From Rhodobiaceae bacterium (GTDB taxonomy: Bacteria; Pseudomonadota; Alphaproteobacteria; Parvibaculales; Parvibaculaceae): a stretch of 64,000 bases of DNA. Positions 27,457-32,979 of this stretch are shown in pieces. The DNA is taken from positions 372,001 through 436,000 of the forward strand of contig CP030277.1 of NCBI GenBank assembly GCA_003330885.1. The letters are read 5' to 3'. The notes beneath the pieces were generated by a model that worked only from the letters and a program-made list of their open reading frames with translations, ran no database searches and was not told the origin of the DNA. The stretch's first letter is position 1. The number at the start of each line of letters is the position of its first letter. A program made the position numbers and the translations under genes.

Positions 27457-28647
27457 ATGGTGAGCCGAAATAACTTAGAGCAATATATTTGGATTGGGTT
27501 TGTAGCGTTCTTCCCAGTTGTCGGATTTGTCGCGCCACGCAGTGCGGCGGCTCTAGTTGCCGTCGCCACAATCGTTACATTAGGTTTGTTCTTGTGGAAT
27601 GAGAGGAGTTTCAGAGCACTTCGATCCCCAATCTGGATCCCTTTCGCAGTGTCCTTAGCGTTGCTTTTATTCGCCGGGCTGGTCGATGGTACTAGCTCCC
27701 ACGGCATCGATCGCTTCTCAAAACTCTCATTGTTTTTGCTGATTGGTGTACTTCTTCTCCTGCTTATAAAAAACCGCATGTCACAGAATGGCGGGTCGGT
27801 CGACGCTGCGCTACTAGTTGGCTATTCGGCCGGCCTTGTTTTGCTAGCCTTTCAACTAGCCACCCAGCACGGTCTGTACGGCTTGCTCAATCCAAACAAT
27901 GATCCACTAGACATCCTGCATGCCGCAAATCGTCCAAGCGTGGTGATGGTATTGTGTTTCTCCGCAGCCTTCCTGGCTGTGCGAAAGACCTGGAGTCCTG
28001 CGGCCGGTTGGGTACTGGGCGGTGTGTTAATCATGCTGGTGGCGATGTCTGAAAGTCAATCAGCTGGCGCGGGTATGGTGGTTTGGATGGTTGTGTATGG
28101 TGTTGCAGCCATAGCGCCAAATCTCGCCATCCAATTGGCGACCTGGGGCGGCGCGGGACTCATCCTATCTATGCCGTTCGTGTTTCTTGTCTTGCTTAAG
28201 ATTGACACAGAGCGGGCAATTGAAATTCCGGCAGCATCGGTTGGTGCCAGGCTAGATATCTGGTACGCGACGAGCTTGGAAGTGCTCCATTCCCCAATTT
28301 GGGGACATGGATTAGAGGCGTCGCGTTCGATCAAGGACTGGCAAATAGACTTCGTCTATTTCGTCGGCCCCAACATTCCCCATCCACATAACGGACCACT
28401 GCAGATCTGGTTGGATCTTGGCGCGATAGGGGCGGTCGTTGCGGCAGCTATATGGGTCTATTTGTCTCGGAAAATCCGATCTTATAGTCTGGACCAACAG
28501 CCCGCTCTTATCGCAGGCCTAGTGGCATTTTTGTGCATTTTGTCGATATCGCATGGGGTGTGGCAAAGCTGGTGGATTAGTGTTGTTTTTGGTGTGATCG
28601 GGATAACGTCCTGGATAGCGAAGCCTGAGATAACAGATACTAAGTGA
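27457..28647 (+). CDS. O-antigen ligase/polymerase family membrane protein (WaaL-like)
   Basis: 396 aa with about ten to twelve hydrophobic segments. The O-antigen ligase family (PF04932) region includes MSESQSAGAGMVVWMV, ARLDIWYATSLEVLHSPIWG and the periplasmic HGLEASRS...PHPHNGPLQIWLDLG, where R, G-x-G and H residues are typical. It would join the exported polysaccharide to lipid A-core (WaaL) or act as a polymerase (Wzy). Because export is by an ABC transporter, the ligase role is more likely. About 95 bases without a gene lie upstream. It is the last hydrophobic protein before the initiating transferase. Confidence 0.8.
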   Translation: MVSRNNLEQYIWIGFVAFFPVVGFVAPRSAAALVAVATIVTLGLFLWNERSFRALRSPIWIPFAVSLALLLFAGLVDGTSSHGIDRFSKLSLFLLIGVLLLLLIKNRMSQNGGSVDAALLVGYSAGLVLLAFQLATQHGLYGLLNPNNDPLDILHAANRPSVVMVLCFSAAFLAVRKTWSPAAGWVLGGVLIMLVAMSESQSAGAGMVVWMVVYGVAAIAPNLAIQLATWGGAGLILSMPFVFLVLLKIDTERAIEIPAASVGARLDIWYATSLEVLHSPIWGHGLEASRSIKDWQIDFVYFVGPNIPHPHNGPLQIWLDLGAIGAVVAAAIWVYLSRKIRSYSLDQQPALIAGLVAFLCILSISHGVWQSWWISVVFGVIGITSWIAKPEITDTK

Positions 28648-28699
28648 TAGCAAACCACGAGGGTATGTTCGCTACATGCGTGACGGTTAGCTCACTGGT

Positions 28700-28704
28700 G
28701 GAGG
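28700..28704 (+). promoter_or_regulatory. Shine-Dalgarno (GGAGG) supporting an ATT start at 28711
   Basis: GGAGG lies six bases before the ATT at 28711. No ATG, GTG or TTG is available in frame between the upstream stop at 28681-28683 and the ATT. The first ordinary start, TTG 28789, would remove the membrane anchor of the enzyme. Confidence 0.6.
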
Positions 28705-28710
28705 TGTGCG

Positions 28711-29355
28711 ATTTTCGATTGGAAACGAGCTCTCGACGTTGCAGTCGCGATTCTGGCGTTTGTTGTTGTATCGCCACTGCTCATCACATTGGCTGCATCG
28801 ATTTACTTGGGTATGGGACGACCAGTGCTTTTTTTGCAAAAGCGGACGGGGTTGAACGGAAATTTGTTTGAGATCATAAAGTTCCGGACGATGAGGGACG
28901 CAGTTGATGAGAAGGGGTCTCCGTTGCCAGACGAGCAACGCTCAACCCGTTTGGGGCGTTTCCTCCGGTCAACTAGTTTAGACGAGCTTCCTGAACTCTG
29001 GAACATCATTCGCGGTGACATGAGCTTCGTGGGTCCGCGGCCGTTGCTTCCGGAGTATCTTCCCTATTATACGGATGTTCAGGCGCAGAGGCACAATGTG
29101 CGCCCAGGCCTGACCGGTTGGGCGCAAGTAAATGGGCGCAATGCGCAAAGTTGGGACGACCGCCTTGCGTTCGATGTCGAGTACGTCAGTACGATGAGTT
29201 TCTTGGGAGACATGCGAATTTTGGCGCTCACAGTTTTGAGGGTGTTCTCTCGATCTGGCATCAGTGCGGCCGGGCACGAAACGATGCCGCGCTTCGATGA
29301 CCAGGTTCGCGCCGGGAAAGCGAAGGGCAAGTTGTTGGGAGATCAAGAGCAGTGA
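28711..29355 (+). CDS. pglC: Undecaprenyl-phosphate sugar-1-phosphate transferase (PglC type), ATT start
   Basis: 214 aa reading from ATT 28711. The N-terminus (I/M)FDWKRALDVAVAILAFVV is the conserved start of this family, with an amphipathic helix and a membrane hairpin. Then come PVLFLQKRTGLNG, IIKFRTMRD, STRLGRFLRSTSLDELPELW, GDMSFVGPRPLLPEYL and RPGLTGWAQVNGRN, the core of the bacterial sugar transferase domain (PF02397). The small PglC-like form transfers a phosphosugar, often from UDP-diNAcBac, to undecaprenyl phosphate to start the glycan. The start is unusual and is argued in the findings. It overlaps the acetyltransferase start by four bases (GTGA). Confidence 0.85.
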   Translation: MFDWKRALDVAVAILAFVVVSPLLITLAASIYLGMGRPVLFLQKRTGLNGNLFEIIKFRTMRDAVDEKGSPLPDEQRSTRLGRFLRSTSLDELPELWNIIRGDMSFVGPRPLLPEYLPYYTDVQAQRHNVRPGLTGWAQVNGRNAQSWDDRLAFDVEYVSTMSFLGDMRILALTVLRVFSRSGISAAGHETMPRFDDQVRAGKAKGKLLGDQEQ

Positions 29356-29972
29356 ACGAAGAGGTCTGGATCTTAGGAGGAGGTGGGCATGCAAAGGTTG
29401 TTGTTGCGACGCTGCAGTCAATGGGAAAGACAATTGGTACCATTTTTGATGACACGCCCGCCAAAATCGGCCAGCAAGTACTCGGTGTTGAAATAGGGAG
29501 CATCACACCGTCGCCAAACTGGTGGCGGGAAGAAAATCGTCATGCTTTCATTGCAATTGGCGACAACGCGATCCGGTCGCAGTTAAGCTCCTTAGACGCT
29601 GAATGGATAGTTGCAAAGCACACCAAGAGCGTCGTGCATCAGAGTGTTGAGATCGGTGAAGGGACACTGATCTGTGCGGGTGTGGTGATCCAGCCTGATA
29701 CAGGACTTGGTTGTCATGTCATCGCCAATACATCCTGCAGCATCGATCACGATTGCACGGTGGGAGACTTCGCACATGTTGGGCCCGGTGCTGTGCTTGC
29801 AGGTGGCGTGCAGGTGGGGGCGGCTGCATTCGTTGGCGCTGGCGCAACGATCATGCCGGGATTGAGCATCGGTTCAGGAGCTGTCATTGGCGCTGGTGCT
29901 GTGGTGACAAGAGATGTTGCTGCGGGACAGAAGGTTGCGGGTGTGCCGGCAAGGGAGTTGAAGAGTGACTGA
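29352..29972 (+). CDS. pglD: Sugar O/N-acetyltransferase (PglD/NeuD type)
   Basis: 206 aa, GTG start at 29352. VWILGGGGHAKVVVATLQ is the N-terminal nucleotide-sugar binding Rossmann part typical of PglD and NeuD, and the rest is a left-handed beta helix (TVGDFAHVGPGAVLAGGVQV, AAAFVGAGATIMPGLSIGSG, GAGAVVTRDVAAGQ). His in CSIDHDCTVGD is the likely catalytic base. In the PglC-PglD-PglE setting it should acetylate the 4-amino group of UDP-4-amino-4,6-dideoxy-GlcNAc with acetyl-CoA. It overlaps the following aminotransferase by eight bases. Confidence 0.87.
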   Translation: MNEEVWILGGGGHAKVVVATLQSMGKTIGTIFDDTPAKIGQQVLGVEIGSITPSPNWWREENRHAFIAIGDNAIRSQLSSLDAEWIVAKHTKSVVHQSVEIGEGTLICAGVVIQPDTGLGCHVIANTSCSIDHDCTVGDFAHVGPGAVLAGGVQVGAAAFVGAGATIMPGLSIGSGAVIGAGAVVTRDVAAGQKVAGVPARELKSD

Positions 29973-31104
29973 ACATTCAAAAATCTTCTTGTCGCCACCG
30001 CATATGTCGGGGCGCGAGCGAGAGCTTGTCATGGAGGTGTTTGACAGCAACTTCGTGGCGCCTGCGGGCCCGATGATTGACAGGTTTGAGGAGGAGTTCT
30101 GCGCGTTTACCGGTCATAAAGCTGCTGTGGCTCTATCAAGCGGTACTGCAGCGATGGATATTGCTCTTCGATTGTTAGATGTCGGAGAAAATGATGAAGT
30201 TTGGGTCTCTGATCTGACCTTTATTGGCGGCGTTTCTCCAATACTTTACCGAGGGGCGAAGCCGGTATTTCTGGATGTCTCGAAGGATACGTGGACTCTT
30301 GATGTAGCGCTTTTGACGGCTGAGCTGGAAAGAGCAAATCAATCTGGACGCTTACCTAAGGCGGTTATACCAGTCGATTTATACGGCCAGTCTTGCGATC
30401 TCGATCCTATCGTAAGTATTTGTGCCCAATATGGCGTTCCCGTGGTTGTCGATTCTGCTGAGTCCATGGGCGCCACGTACGAGGGGCGCCATGCCGGCGT
30501 TGGTGCGGCTCTGGCTGTGTATTCATTCAACGGCAACAAGATAATGACGACTGCTGGCGGTGGTATGCTGGCCGGTGCAGACGAAGAAATGTTGAGCCGT
30601 GCGCGCTACCTAGCCCAACAAGCACGTCAGCCTGTAATTCACTACGAACATACCGAGACAGGCTACAATTACCGCATGCCGAGTCTCTGCGCCGCTGTGG
30701 GTGTAGGGCAATTGGAAGTGTTGACCGATCGAGTAGCTCGACGCCGGGAAATATTTGAGGTGTATACGGATACCCTCGGCAGATATGAGGGTATCGAAAT
30801 GATGCCAGAGGCCTCATATGGGTGTGCAAATCGATGGTTATCGGTTTTGACTATGTCGCCGTCTGATATTTCCATTTCTCCAGCCGACGTGTGTGAAGTT
30901 GCAGCGCGTCAAGGCGTCGAGTGTCGCCCCGTCTGGAAACCCATGAGCCACCAGCCAGTTTTCGGAAACGCGCGGTCTGTTTTAACCGGCGTAGGTGAAA
31001 GGTTGTTCAAGACAGGACTATGCCTTCCTTCCGGGTCGGCAATGTCCGACGTAGATCTTGAGCGTGCTATCTCGGTGATAAAGAGTGCGATGGGACTACA
31101 CTGA
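29965..31104 (+). CDS. pglE: UDP-4-amino-sugar aminotransferase (PglE type)
   Basis: 379 aa, DegT/DnrJ/EryC1 family. KIFLSPPHMSGRERELVMEV at the N-terminus and the block FNGNKIMTTAGGGM with Schiff-base Lys192 are typical of PglE/bacillosamine aminotransferases; Asp163 in VVDSAESMGATY binds the cofactor. The substrate would be UDP-4-keto-6-deoxy-GlcNAc. It sits after PglC and PglD, giving two of the three steps to UDP-diNAcBac. The first step (PglF-type 4,6-dehydratase) has no candidate in the window. It ends ten bases before the convergent ABC transporter stop. Confidence 0.88.
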   Translation: MTEHSKIFLSPPHMSGRERELVMEVFDSNFVAPAGPMIDRFEEEFCAFTGHKAAVALSSGTAAMDIALRLLDVGENDEVWVSDLTFIGGVSPILYRGAKPVFLDVSKDTWTLDVALLTAELERANQSGRLPKAVIPVDLYGQSCDLDPIVSICAQYGVPVVVDSAESMGATYEGRHAGVGAALAVYSFNGNKIMTTAGGGMLAGADEEMLSRARYLAQQARQPVIHYEHTETGYNYRMPSLCAAVGVGQLEVLTDRVARRREIFEVYTDTLGRYEGIEMMPEASYGCANRWLSVLTMSPSDISISPADVCEVAARQGVECRPVWKPMSHQPVFGNARSVLTGVGERLFKTGLCLPSGSAMSDVDLERAISVIKSAMGLH

Positions 31105-31113
31105 CTTCATCGC

Positions 31114-32979
31114 TCAATCCGTTTCCTGAACCTGCAGCTCATAGAGTGTTGCATAGAGCCCTCCTTGAGCCATCAGCGCGTCATGGGGGCCTATTTCCCG
31201 AACTTCACCTTGAACCAGAACGACAATTCGATCCGCTTCTCGAATGGTCTGCAATCGATGGGCAATGATGATTGAGGTACGGCCCTCTGTGAGTTTCCGC
31301 AGCGCATCCTGAATAACGAGTTCGGTTTCTGTGTCCACACTGGCCGTTGCTTCATCCAGAATGAGGATGTCCGGGTCCACAGCGAGTACCCGTGCGAAGG
31401 CCAGCAGCTGTCTTTGGCCGTGGCTCAGGTTCCGTCCACGCTCAACAAGTGGTGTGTCATACCCCAATGGCAATTGGCGAATGAACGAGTCTGCATTCAC
31501 CGTCTTCGCCGCCTCAATGGCCGCCTCTCGTGAGATGGTCGGGTCGCCCAAGGCAATATTGTCATAGATGCTGCCCGAGAAAATATGAAAGTCTTGCAAC
31601 ACGACGCCGACTTTCCGGCGAACCTCAGACGGCGCCACATCCATGATGTCGACACCATCAATGGTAATGTCACCCGGTGTCACGTCATAGAAGCGACAGA
31701 GGAGACGGATAAGGGTCGTTTTGCCAGACCCCGTTGGGCCCACAATCGCGATCTTCTCACCGGGGGCGATGTCGAAGCTGACATCTTTAAGAATCGGATT
31801 TCCCGATCTGTACTCAAAGTTGAGCTTGTTGAAAGCGACCGCACCACTGAGCTGTGCAGGCAACGGTTTCGGGGCCGTGGGTTCGGTCAGCGCCTCTTTC
31901 CAATCAAGCGCCTGGAAGATCCGTTCACAGCTTGCCATAGCGCGAAAGAGGACATTCCACTGTTCACCCATAGCTACAATCGGACGGAAGAGCATCTCCG
32001 TGAAGCTCGCAAACAGGATGATGCTGCCGAGCGTCACGTCCGCGCCCACTACCTGTGCGCCACCAAACCAGATGATGGTTGCCATGGCGAGGAAGATCAG
32101 GCTGTCCATTGCTGGGCCATACAGGCTTTCTATGACAATGGCCCTGTTCTCCTGATGACGGTTCTCCGAGTTGACGTCTGAATAGCGCTTGAAGTTGATC
32201 TCTTCGCGTTGATAGAGCTGGACGACTTCCATGCCAGACAGGTTTTCTTGCAGGTTTTCATTGAGCCGCGACAGGCTGGAACGGATATCGCGATAAATCT
32301 TGCGGCTCGCCATGCGGAAGATGTAGGTGGCCACCGCCGCGATAGGCATGAGCAATAACAGCATGCCCGTCAATTCCGGGTTGATGGAGACCATGATGGT
32401 GATGGCAACAAAGAAGGGAACAAACTCTCCCATCAGAACACCAAAGCCAGACAGAAGTTCGAATAGTGTCTCGATATCATTGGTGACGCGGGTCATGACC
32501 CGACCCACTGCCACACGGTCGTAGAATGTCGCAGGTAGCCTTTCCAGATGCGCGAACACATCACGTCTCAGATCCTTGAGACCGGAGAGAACCGATCCCG
32601 CCAGGAGGATGCGAAACAGGTGCGCGAACATGCCGGCCATCAACACCCAGACACCATAAATCACACAGGCAGCAATAAGCGCGTCAAGCGAAGCAGCATC
32701 TGCAAACCAGGTGACCAGTGCGGTTTGCCCCATGTCAGGGGCTTCCATGCCTTCGCCCGGCAGTAGCATCCCGTCAATGACCACCCGAGTGACAATGACG
32801 GGTGCGAGCACAGTCGCCGTCGCTGCGAGCAGGACGCAGGCAACGGCAAGCAACGCCCGCGCTCGGTAAGGCTTCAGCCAGCTGAAGAGGCGGCGCAAAA
32901 GCTGAAAGTCAAAGCGCTTCCCCTCAATGTCATTGTCGAAGACTGTATAGTCCCGTTCTTCTGCCAGGCGGTCGCTCAT
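31114..32979 (-). CDS. Heterodimeric ABC exporter, subunit with active ATP-site Glu
   Basis: 621 aa: a membrane domain of six helices (first 330 residues) fused to an ATPase domain. Walker A GPTGSGKTT is near residue 415, the signature is LSHGQRQLLAF near 516, and Walker B with catalytic Glu is LILDEATASVD near 541. LSHGQ rather than LSGGQ is a mild departure. It overlaps the upstream partner gene by four bases (ATGA), which fits an obligate heterodimer of the BmrCD/TM287-288 kind. The substrate may be drugs, lipids or peptides; nothing in sequence decides. It converges on pglE. Confidence 0.9.
   Translation of the reverse strand: MSDRLAEERDYTVFDNDIEGKRFDFQLLRRLFSWLKPYRARALLAVACVLLAATATVLAPVIVTRVVIDGMLLPGEGMEAPDMGQTALVTWFADAASLDALIAACVIYGVWVLMAGMFAHLFRILLAGSVLSGLKDLRRDVFAHLERLPATFYDRVAVGRVMTRVTNDIETLFELLSGFGVLMGEFVPFFVAITIMVSINPELTGMLLLLMPIAAVATYIFRMASRKIYRDIRSSLSRLNENLQENLSGMEVVQLYQREEINFKRYSDVNSENRHQENRAIVIESLYGPAMDSLIFLAMATIIWFGGAQVVGADVTLGSIILFASFTEMLFRPIVAMGEQWNVLFRAMASCERIFQALDWKEALTEPTAPKPLPAQLSGAVAFNKLNFEYRSGNPILKDVSFDIAPGEKIAIVGPTGSGKTTLIRLLCRFYDVTPGDITIDGVDIMDVAPSEVRRKVGVVLQDFHIFSGSIYDNIALGDPTISREAAIEAAKTVNADSFIRQLPLGYDTPLVERGRNLSHGQRQLLAFARVLAVDPDILILDEATASVDTETELVIQDALRKLTEGRTSIIIAHRLQTIREADRIVVLVQGEVREIGPHDALMAQGGLYATLYELQVQETD

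Follow-up and report, generated by a model that had tools for sequence, protein, structure and literature searches.

Evidence for an ATT start codon in a PglC-like phosphoglycosyl transferase gene, with ATT or ATC recurring at the aligned codon in its genus

Introduction

The codons ATT and ATC are read poorly by the initiator tRNA, and IF3 destabilises the complexes formed on them. In E. coli the AUU start of pcnB reportedly limits expression of the gene, as the title of a 2002 study by Binns and Masters has it. The infC gene starts with ATT in E. coli, with ATC in Streptomyces (PMC5472188) and with AUA in S. aureus (PMC13009471). Translation from AUU and AUA starts in S. aureus is given as about 10% of the AUG level, ccpN in rich medium reaching as much as 30%; the non-canonical start sites described there carry extended Shine-Dalgarno sequences (PMC13009471). 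In the case of Streptomyces sigR a GTG located in the ribosome site had been wrongly annotated; the real start is GTC, which is repressed by IF3 (PMC5472188). According to the same work experiments have characterised very few non-canonical bacterial starts, and prediction programs presume ATG, GTG or TTG (PMC5472188), so that a gene with a start of this kind is easily missed or truncated in annotation. For the phosphoglycosyl transferase PglC, PMC6133551 describes a reentrant membrane helix set by Lys7-Arg8 and Ser23-Pro24, the K7A variant being inactive. Undecaprenyl phosphate is portrayed as a scarce carrier (PMC11081497).

Here we analyse a PglC-like transferase gene with a probable ATT start, encoded in a stretch of 64,000 nucleotides from a Rhodobiaceae bacterium (the whole stretch is called the window). 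Its features are listed in Table 1. The transferase family is an ordinary one and the start-codon class is already known. In the open-licence literature no paper was found on a phosphoglycosyl transferase or glycosyltransferase with an ATT/AUU start, and a general query on bacterial non-canonical AUU/AUC starts retrieved none either. As far as this search reaches, an ATT/ATC start that recurs across a genus appears to be new for a phosphoglycosyl transferase.

Materials and Methods

The window genome (G000) was compared with six other genomes of its genus (G001 to G006), of which G002 has two transferase loci. The homologue search covered these 7 genus genomes, 40 genomes of the family (the order search also comprised 40) and 385 genomes of the class drawn evenly; 63 homologue loci came from named genome contigs. 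The survey of starts took in 114 loci, reduced to 106 distinct ones once repeated loci, loci lacking a match and matches starting after query residue 24 had been removed. Large or fused enzymes, recognised by more than 130 open codons upstream (62 of the 106), were set aside and 44 small loci were kept, of which 8 belong to the genus and 36 do not. In G036 the transferase domain forms the end of an open frame of 667 codons; the preceding stop lies 461 codons upstream, and the domain may be fused to another protein. For infC the candidates ATG, GTG, TTG, ATT, ATC and ATA were compared and the one with the best Shine-Dalgarno sequence was picked.

Results

Protein Family and Anatomy

The encoded protein matches the PF02397 (Bac_transf) domain over residues 5-179 (profile search, E 2.8e-61, 206.6 bits against a curated cut-off of 27). 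Its nearest solved structure, by sequence as well as by fold, is Campylobacter concisus PglC (8g1n). The sequence match has a phmmer E of 1.6e-61, and the predicted model has the PglC fold when compared by Foldseek with 8g1n_B (E 2.1e-19, TM 0.73/0.81); identity in the fold alignments with C. concisus PglC (8g1n, 8e37) is 48-49%. The alignment to C. concisus PglC begins at residue 5 of the window protein, whose K5, R6, S21 and P22 align with K7, R8, S23 and P24 of PglC. Across 19 aligned sequences (window protein included) Lys5 is invariant and Arg6 nearly invariant. We take Asp91-Glu92 to be the catalytic dyad of the family. The predicted activity is transfer of a sugar phosphate to undecaprenyl phosphate. 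In the predicted structure (mean pLDDT 88.3) a single membrane helix spans residues 4-35; a reentrant topology is putative, the model giving one helix over these residues. The Ser-Pro helix-break motif is absent in G001 and G006, a loss that might go with a changed reentrant topology.

Table 1. Positions of the transferase gene, its start region, its neighbours and the infC gene of the same genome.
Feature	Position	Strand	Basis or remark
Small monotopic phosphoglycosyl transferase gene (PglC-like, PF02397)	28711..29355	+	214 aa if ATT is the start
Upstream in-frame stop TGA	28681..28683	+	Direct reading
Shine-Dalgarno GGAGGTG	28700..28706	+	Inside GGTGGAGGTG (28697-28706); pairing energy -13.2 kcal/mol
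ATT, inferred start codon	28711..28713	+	No upstream ATG/GTG/TTG; aligned ATT/ATC in relatives
Lys5-Arg6 codons, membrane-helix topology motif (PglC Lys7-Arg8)	28723..28728	+	Alignment and PMC6133551
Ser21-Pro22 codons, helix-break motif (PglC Ser23-Pro24)	28771..28776	+	Alignment and PMC6133551
TTG, next in-frame standard start (codon 27)	28789..28791	+	Direct reading
Asp91-Glu92 codons	28981..28986	+	Invariant in alignment
Wzy/O-antigen-ligase-like gene (PF04932), upstream	27457..28647	+	Domain match
NeuD/PglD-like acetyltransferase gene	29352..29972	+	GTG start overlaps transferase stop (GTGA)
DegT/DnrJ/EryC1 aminotransferase gene (PglE/LegC-like)	29965..31104	+	Below NCBIfam LegC cut-off
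infC of the own genome	G000:C1:3577164-3577664		ATA, no standard start

The Start Region

A preliminary description of this DNA had proposed a sugar transferase starting at ATT 28711, with GGAGG six bases before it and no in-frame ATG, GTG or TTG back to the stop at 28681. The PF02397 match confirms the family, and direct reading confirms the arrangement. The stop is followed by CGG TTA GCT CAC TGG TGG AGG TGT GCG and then by ATT; no standard start codon occurs in frame between the stop and ATT, nor up to the Lys-Arg motif. GGAGG (28700-28704) lies exactly six bases 5′ of ATT and is part of a longer pairing stretch, GGAGGTG. Initiation at TTG 28789, correctly named as the next standard start, would remove the Lys-Arg and Ser-Pro motifs and most of the helix 4-35. 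The start must therefore sit near 28711, and the window gene has no ATG, GTG or TTG start compatible with the conserved protein. The description had also let the family N-terminus begin exactly at ATT. Family-wide conservation begins at Lys5-Arg6 and not at the first residue.

Pairing energies were computed for the bases 4-17 ahead of the codon with an assumed 16S tail (a 16S search of the own genome gave no match, Caulobacter not being one of the controls that it did detect); on this basis they are -13.2 kcal/mol for the ATT of G000, -8.3 and -10.1 for those of G001 and G006, and -9.3 and -9.5 for the ATC codons of G003 and G004. The value of -13.2 is reached by none of 1076 in-frame ATT, ATC or ATA codons (codon 21 onward in 56 window ORFs), and those of the other four by 0.8 to 3.5% of them. 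The non-standard codon of the window gene is thus preceded by a strong and properly spaced Shine-Dalgarno sequence.

RNA structure hiding the start was considered and rejected, as the fold of 28648-28760 is no stronger than that of its shuffles (z 0.71). An Rfam search of 28300-29000 returned one match (E 0.14), far below its gathering score and on the opposite strand, and the loci of six relatives contained three tRNAs at gathering score.

The Same Codon in the Genus

No ATG, GTG or TTG is found in frame before the Lys-Arg motif in 4 of the 8 genus loci (G000, G001, G003, G006), against 0 of the 36 small loci outside the genus (Fisher p 5e-4, with loci treated as independent and relatedness ignored). 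The aligned codon is ATT in G000, G001 and G006, ATC in G003 and G004, and ATA in G002; a non-standard start, ATT or ATC without an alternative in the four loci, is therefore conserved among relatives. G001 and G006 are assembled in 2 contigs and 1 contig, respectively, both with 100% completeness. G003 is a MAG, with some N in the locus downstream of the start. The stop TAG lies directly 5′ of ATT in G001 and G006, while in G000 and G003 a TGA is found further upstream. The first downstream standard codon is codon 12 in G001, 7 in G006, 8 in G003 and 27 in G000, in all cases past Lys-Arg. When G001 and G006 are compared, the printed alignment has gaps of 5 nt and 1 nt within about 60 nt upstream of ATT and none after it, and their differences over 205 codons are distributed as 22/18/79 among codon positions 1/2/3. 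Gaps confined to the upstream side, together with this pattern, indicate that protein selection seems to begin at or just after ATT.

The preliminary description had named ATG in the relatives, with ATT in the window genome alone, as an outcome that would speak against it. The relatives do not show this pattern. ATT/ATC recurs among them, but three relatives depart from the window gene. The relative nearest in sequence, G005 (67%), carries an ATG two codons and a GTG three codons after the aligned site, both with almost no Shine-Dalgarno sequence (-0.1 and 1.3). In G002 an ATG is found seven codons before the aligned ATA, and since this ATG has a good Shine-Dalgarno sequence (-8.3) and the ATA a weak one (-4.6), G002 is probably translated from the upstream ATG. 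In G004 a GTG lies three codons upstream of the aligned ATC; its energy of only -2.0, as compared to -9.5, makes the ATC the better start. Judged from these loci, not every member of the genus uses a non-AUG start, because G005 and G002 have standard starts: G005 does not show the trait, and both G002 loci probably lack it. In G005, as read by eye, the transferase GTG shares bases with the stop of a short upstream frame (18 codons, GGGAG ahead of its ATG), an arrangement that suggests a translationally coupled leader.

Rarity of Such Starts and the infC Control

In 464 kb, about 12% of the genome, all 429 ORFs with 120 codons or more were scanned without a coding-score filter for ATT, ATC or ATA with an energy of -7.5 or lower, at least 4 codons before any standard start. 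Three of the 429 ORFs passed. In two of the three, an ATG with a similarly good Shine-Dalgarno sequence (-6.3, -9.4) follows shortly, so that the transferase gene is the only convincing candidate among these ORFs.

The infC gene served as control. In the genus, each of the 7 genomes has ATA at infC and lacks a standard start there. In the class, among the best 30 loci of 56 matching genomes, 28 lie outside the genus, and in these the start with the best Shine-Dalgarno sequence is ATA in 23 and ATC in 5; in half of them (14/28) no ATG, GTG or TTG start occurs from the upstream stop to the conserved GPR motif. Overall the start picked is ATA or ATC in 35 of 35 infC loci (7 genus, 28 class), and in these predictions the Shine-Dalgarno method agrees with known infC biology. 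From the 28 loci outside the genus, an isoleucine-type infC start looks widespread in Alphaproteobacteria; no paper on an infC with an ATA start in this class was found in the open-licence literature.

Neighbourhood and Evolution

Within the compared region (27457-32979) the downstream ABC transporter gene is 81-97% identical in the regions of 5 of the 6 relatives and was not found in the G003 stretch. The transferase is found in all six with 59-67% identity and the Wzy-like protein in four with 40-42%. A diverged cassette beside a conserved transporter points to a fast-changing glycan cassette that occupies one common place in most genus members, and suggests cassette exchange at one chromosomal slot. 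The non-AUG start is present in strongly diverged alleles. The protein tree, from which one G002 locus was omitted, unites G000 with G002-G005 (support 87/69) and places G001/G006 elsewhere with weak support (89/81); the AU test does not reject a single clade for the genus (p-AU 0.19). The trait may be old and have been lost in G002 and G005, or it may have arisen more than once, for instance twice.

Discussion

Several explanations compete with initiation at ATT. An error in sequencing or in assembly, or an isolated mutation from ATG in the window genome only, was the simple alternative given in the preliminary description, ATT being one base away from ATG. We regard its probability as close to nil: the high-quality genomes G001 and G006 carry ATT, and the MAG G003 carries ATC, at the same aligned codon and with no standard start upstream. 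Relatives thus have the same trait and the error is rejected. A shorter protein initiated at TTG 28789 is what a gene finder restricted to ATG, GTG and TTG would choose, as in the ORF list, the codon being in frame. It is very unlikely, because the protein anatomy would be lost (both membrane motifs, Lys5-Arg6 and Ser-Pro, and the greater part of the helix), and the first standard codons of the relatives differ in position. Initiation could also occur out of frame upstream and reach the gene by ribosomal frameshift, or the upstream stop could be read through. Standard starts out of frame, between -120 and +12, do open frames overlapping the gene in G000, G001, G006 and G003. These frames differ (1 and 2 in G000, 1 in G001, 2 in G006 and G003), their Shine-Dalgarno sequences are weaker (the best, -6.2, belongs to a G000 GTG inside the Shine-Dalgarno region), and no common slippery site was seen by eye in the four loci. 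For readthrough, the stop would have to be a TAG adjoining ATT in two genomes and a more distant TGA in the other two. As the four loci share neither a frame nor a stop arrangement, we reject this explanation too, as extremely improbable.

A different objection accepts the non-AUG start and questions its meaning: an upstream ATG would have been lost and an isoleucine codon have taken over, the start persisting as a tolerated relic with no selection for low expression. The similar N-terminus of G002 (I-P-L-W-K-K), which stands behind an upstream ATG, is in its favour, as the isoleucine codon may once have been internal, and so is the fast evolution of the locus. On the other side, a single change would turn ATT into ATG, yet alleles diverged to 59-67% protein identity keep ATT or ATC, and the Shine-Dalgarno sequence stays aimed at this codon in several species. 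We consider a mere relic rather unlikely.

Taking the evidence jointly, we hold it to be highly probable that translation begins at ATT 28711, as a weak start compensated by its Shine-Dalgarno sequence; IF3 would discriminate against it, and it would hold back the step that commits the cell to glycan assembly. The position of the start is well supported by the comparisons above; the reduced yield, the IF3 dependence and the metabolic reason we infer. The strong Shine-Dalgarno sequence would place the ribosome at ATT and offset part of the poor codon-anticodon match with the initiator tRNA. ATT/ATC would then be a low-efficiency start of the IF3-discriminated class, kept in much of the genus, and would most likely hold the enzyme at a low level, whereby undecaprenyl phosphate is not tied up in the first lipid-linked step. 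The IF3-controlled lowering of translation proposed in the preliminary description, limiting the committed step, fits published cases. The acetyltransferase gene may be throttled too, because its GTG overlaps the transferase stop. If confirmed, the transferase would be a case of a weak start codon setting the dose of a committed glycan-assembly enzyme. A bolder idea, to which we give little credence, is that the genus has put its glycan-committing enzyme in the IF3-sensed class of infC, so that priming tracks the state of initiation and the start outlives allele replacement.

Among the known systems, E. coli pcnB shares with the transferase an AUU start, said in its case to limit expression (by title), and differs in gene, function and lineage. 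With C. concisus PglC the transferase shares the enzyme fold, the membrane helix and the K/R/S/P motif residues. S. aureus cvfC1 (AUU) and ccpN (AUA) are similar in having a non-canonical start kept among relatives and an extended Shine-Dalgarno sequence (PMC13009471); their starts come from start-site profiling and reporters, whereas that of the transferase comes from sequence comparison. Streptomyces sigR resembles the G004 locus, where a standard codon (seemingly the GTG) also lies within the Shine-Dalgarno region and the real start would be non-canonical. It differs from the transferase in starting with GTC and not ATT, and in that its repression by IF3 has been demonstrated. infC has, like the transferase, an isoleucine-type start, a good Shine-Dalgarno sequence and no standard start nearby. 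It controls itself, however, while the transferase is a glycan enzyme whose dependence on IF3 is putative.
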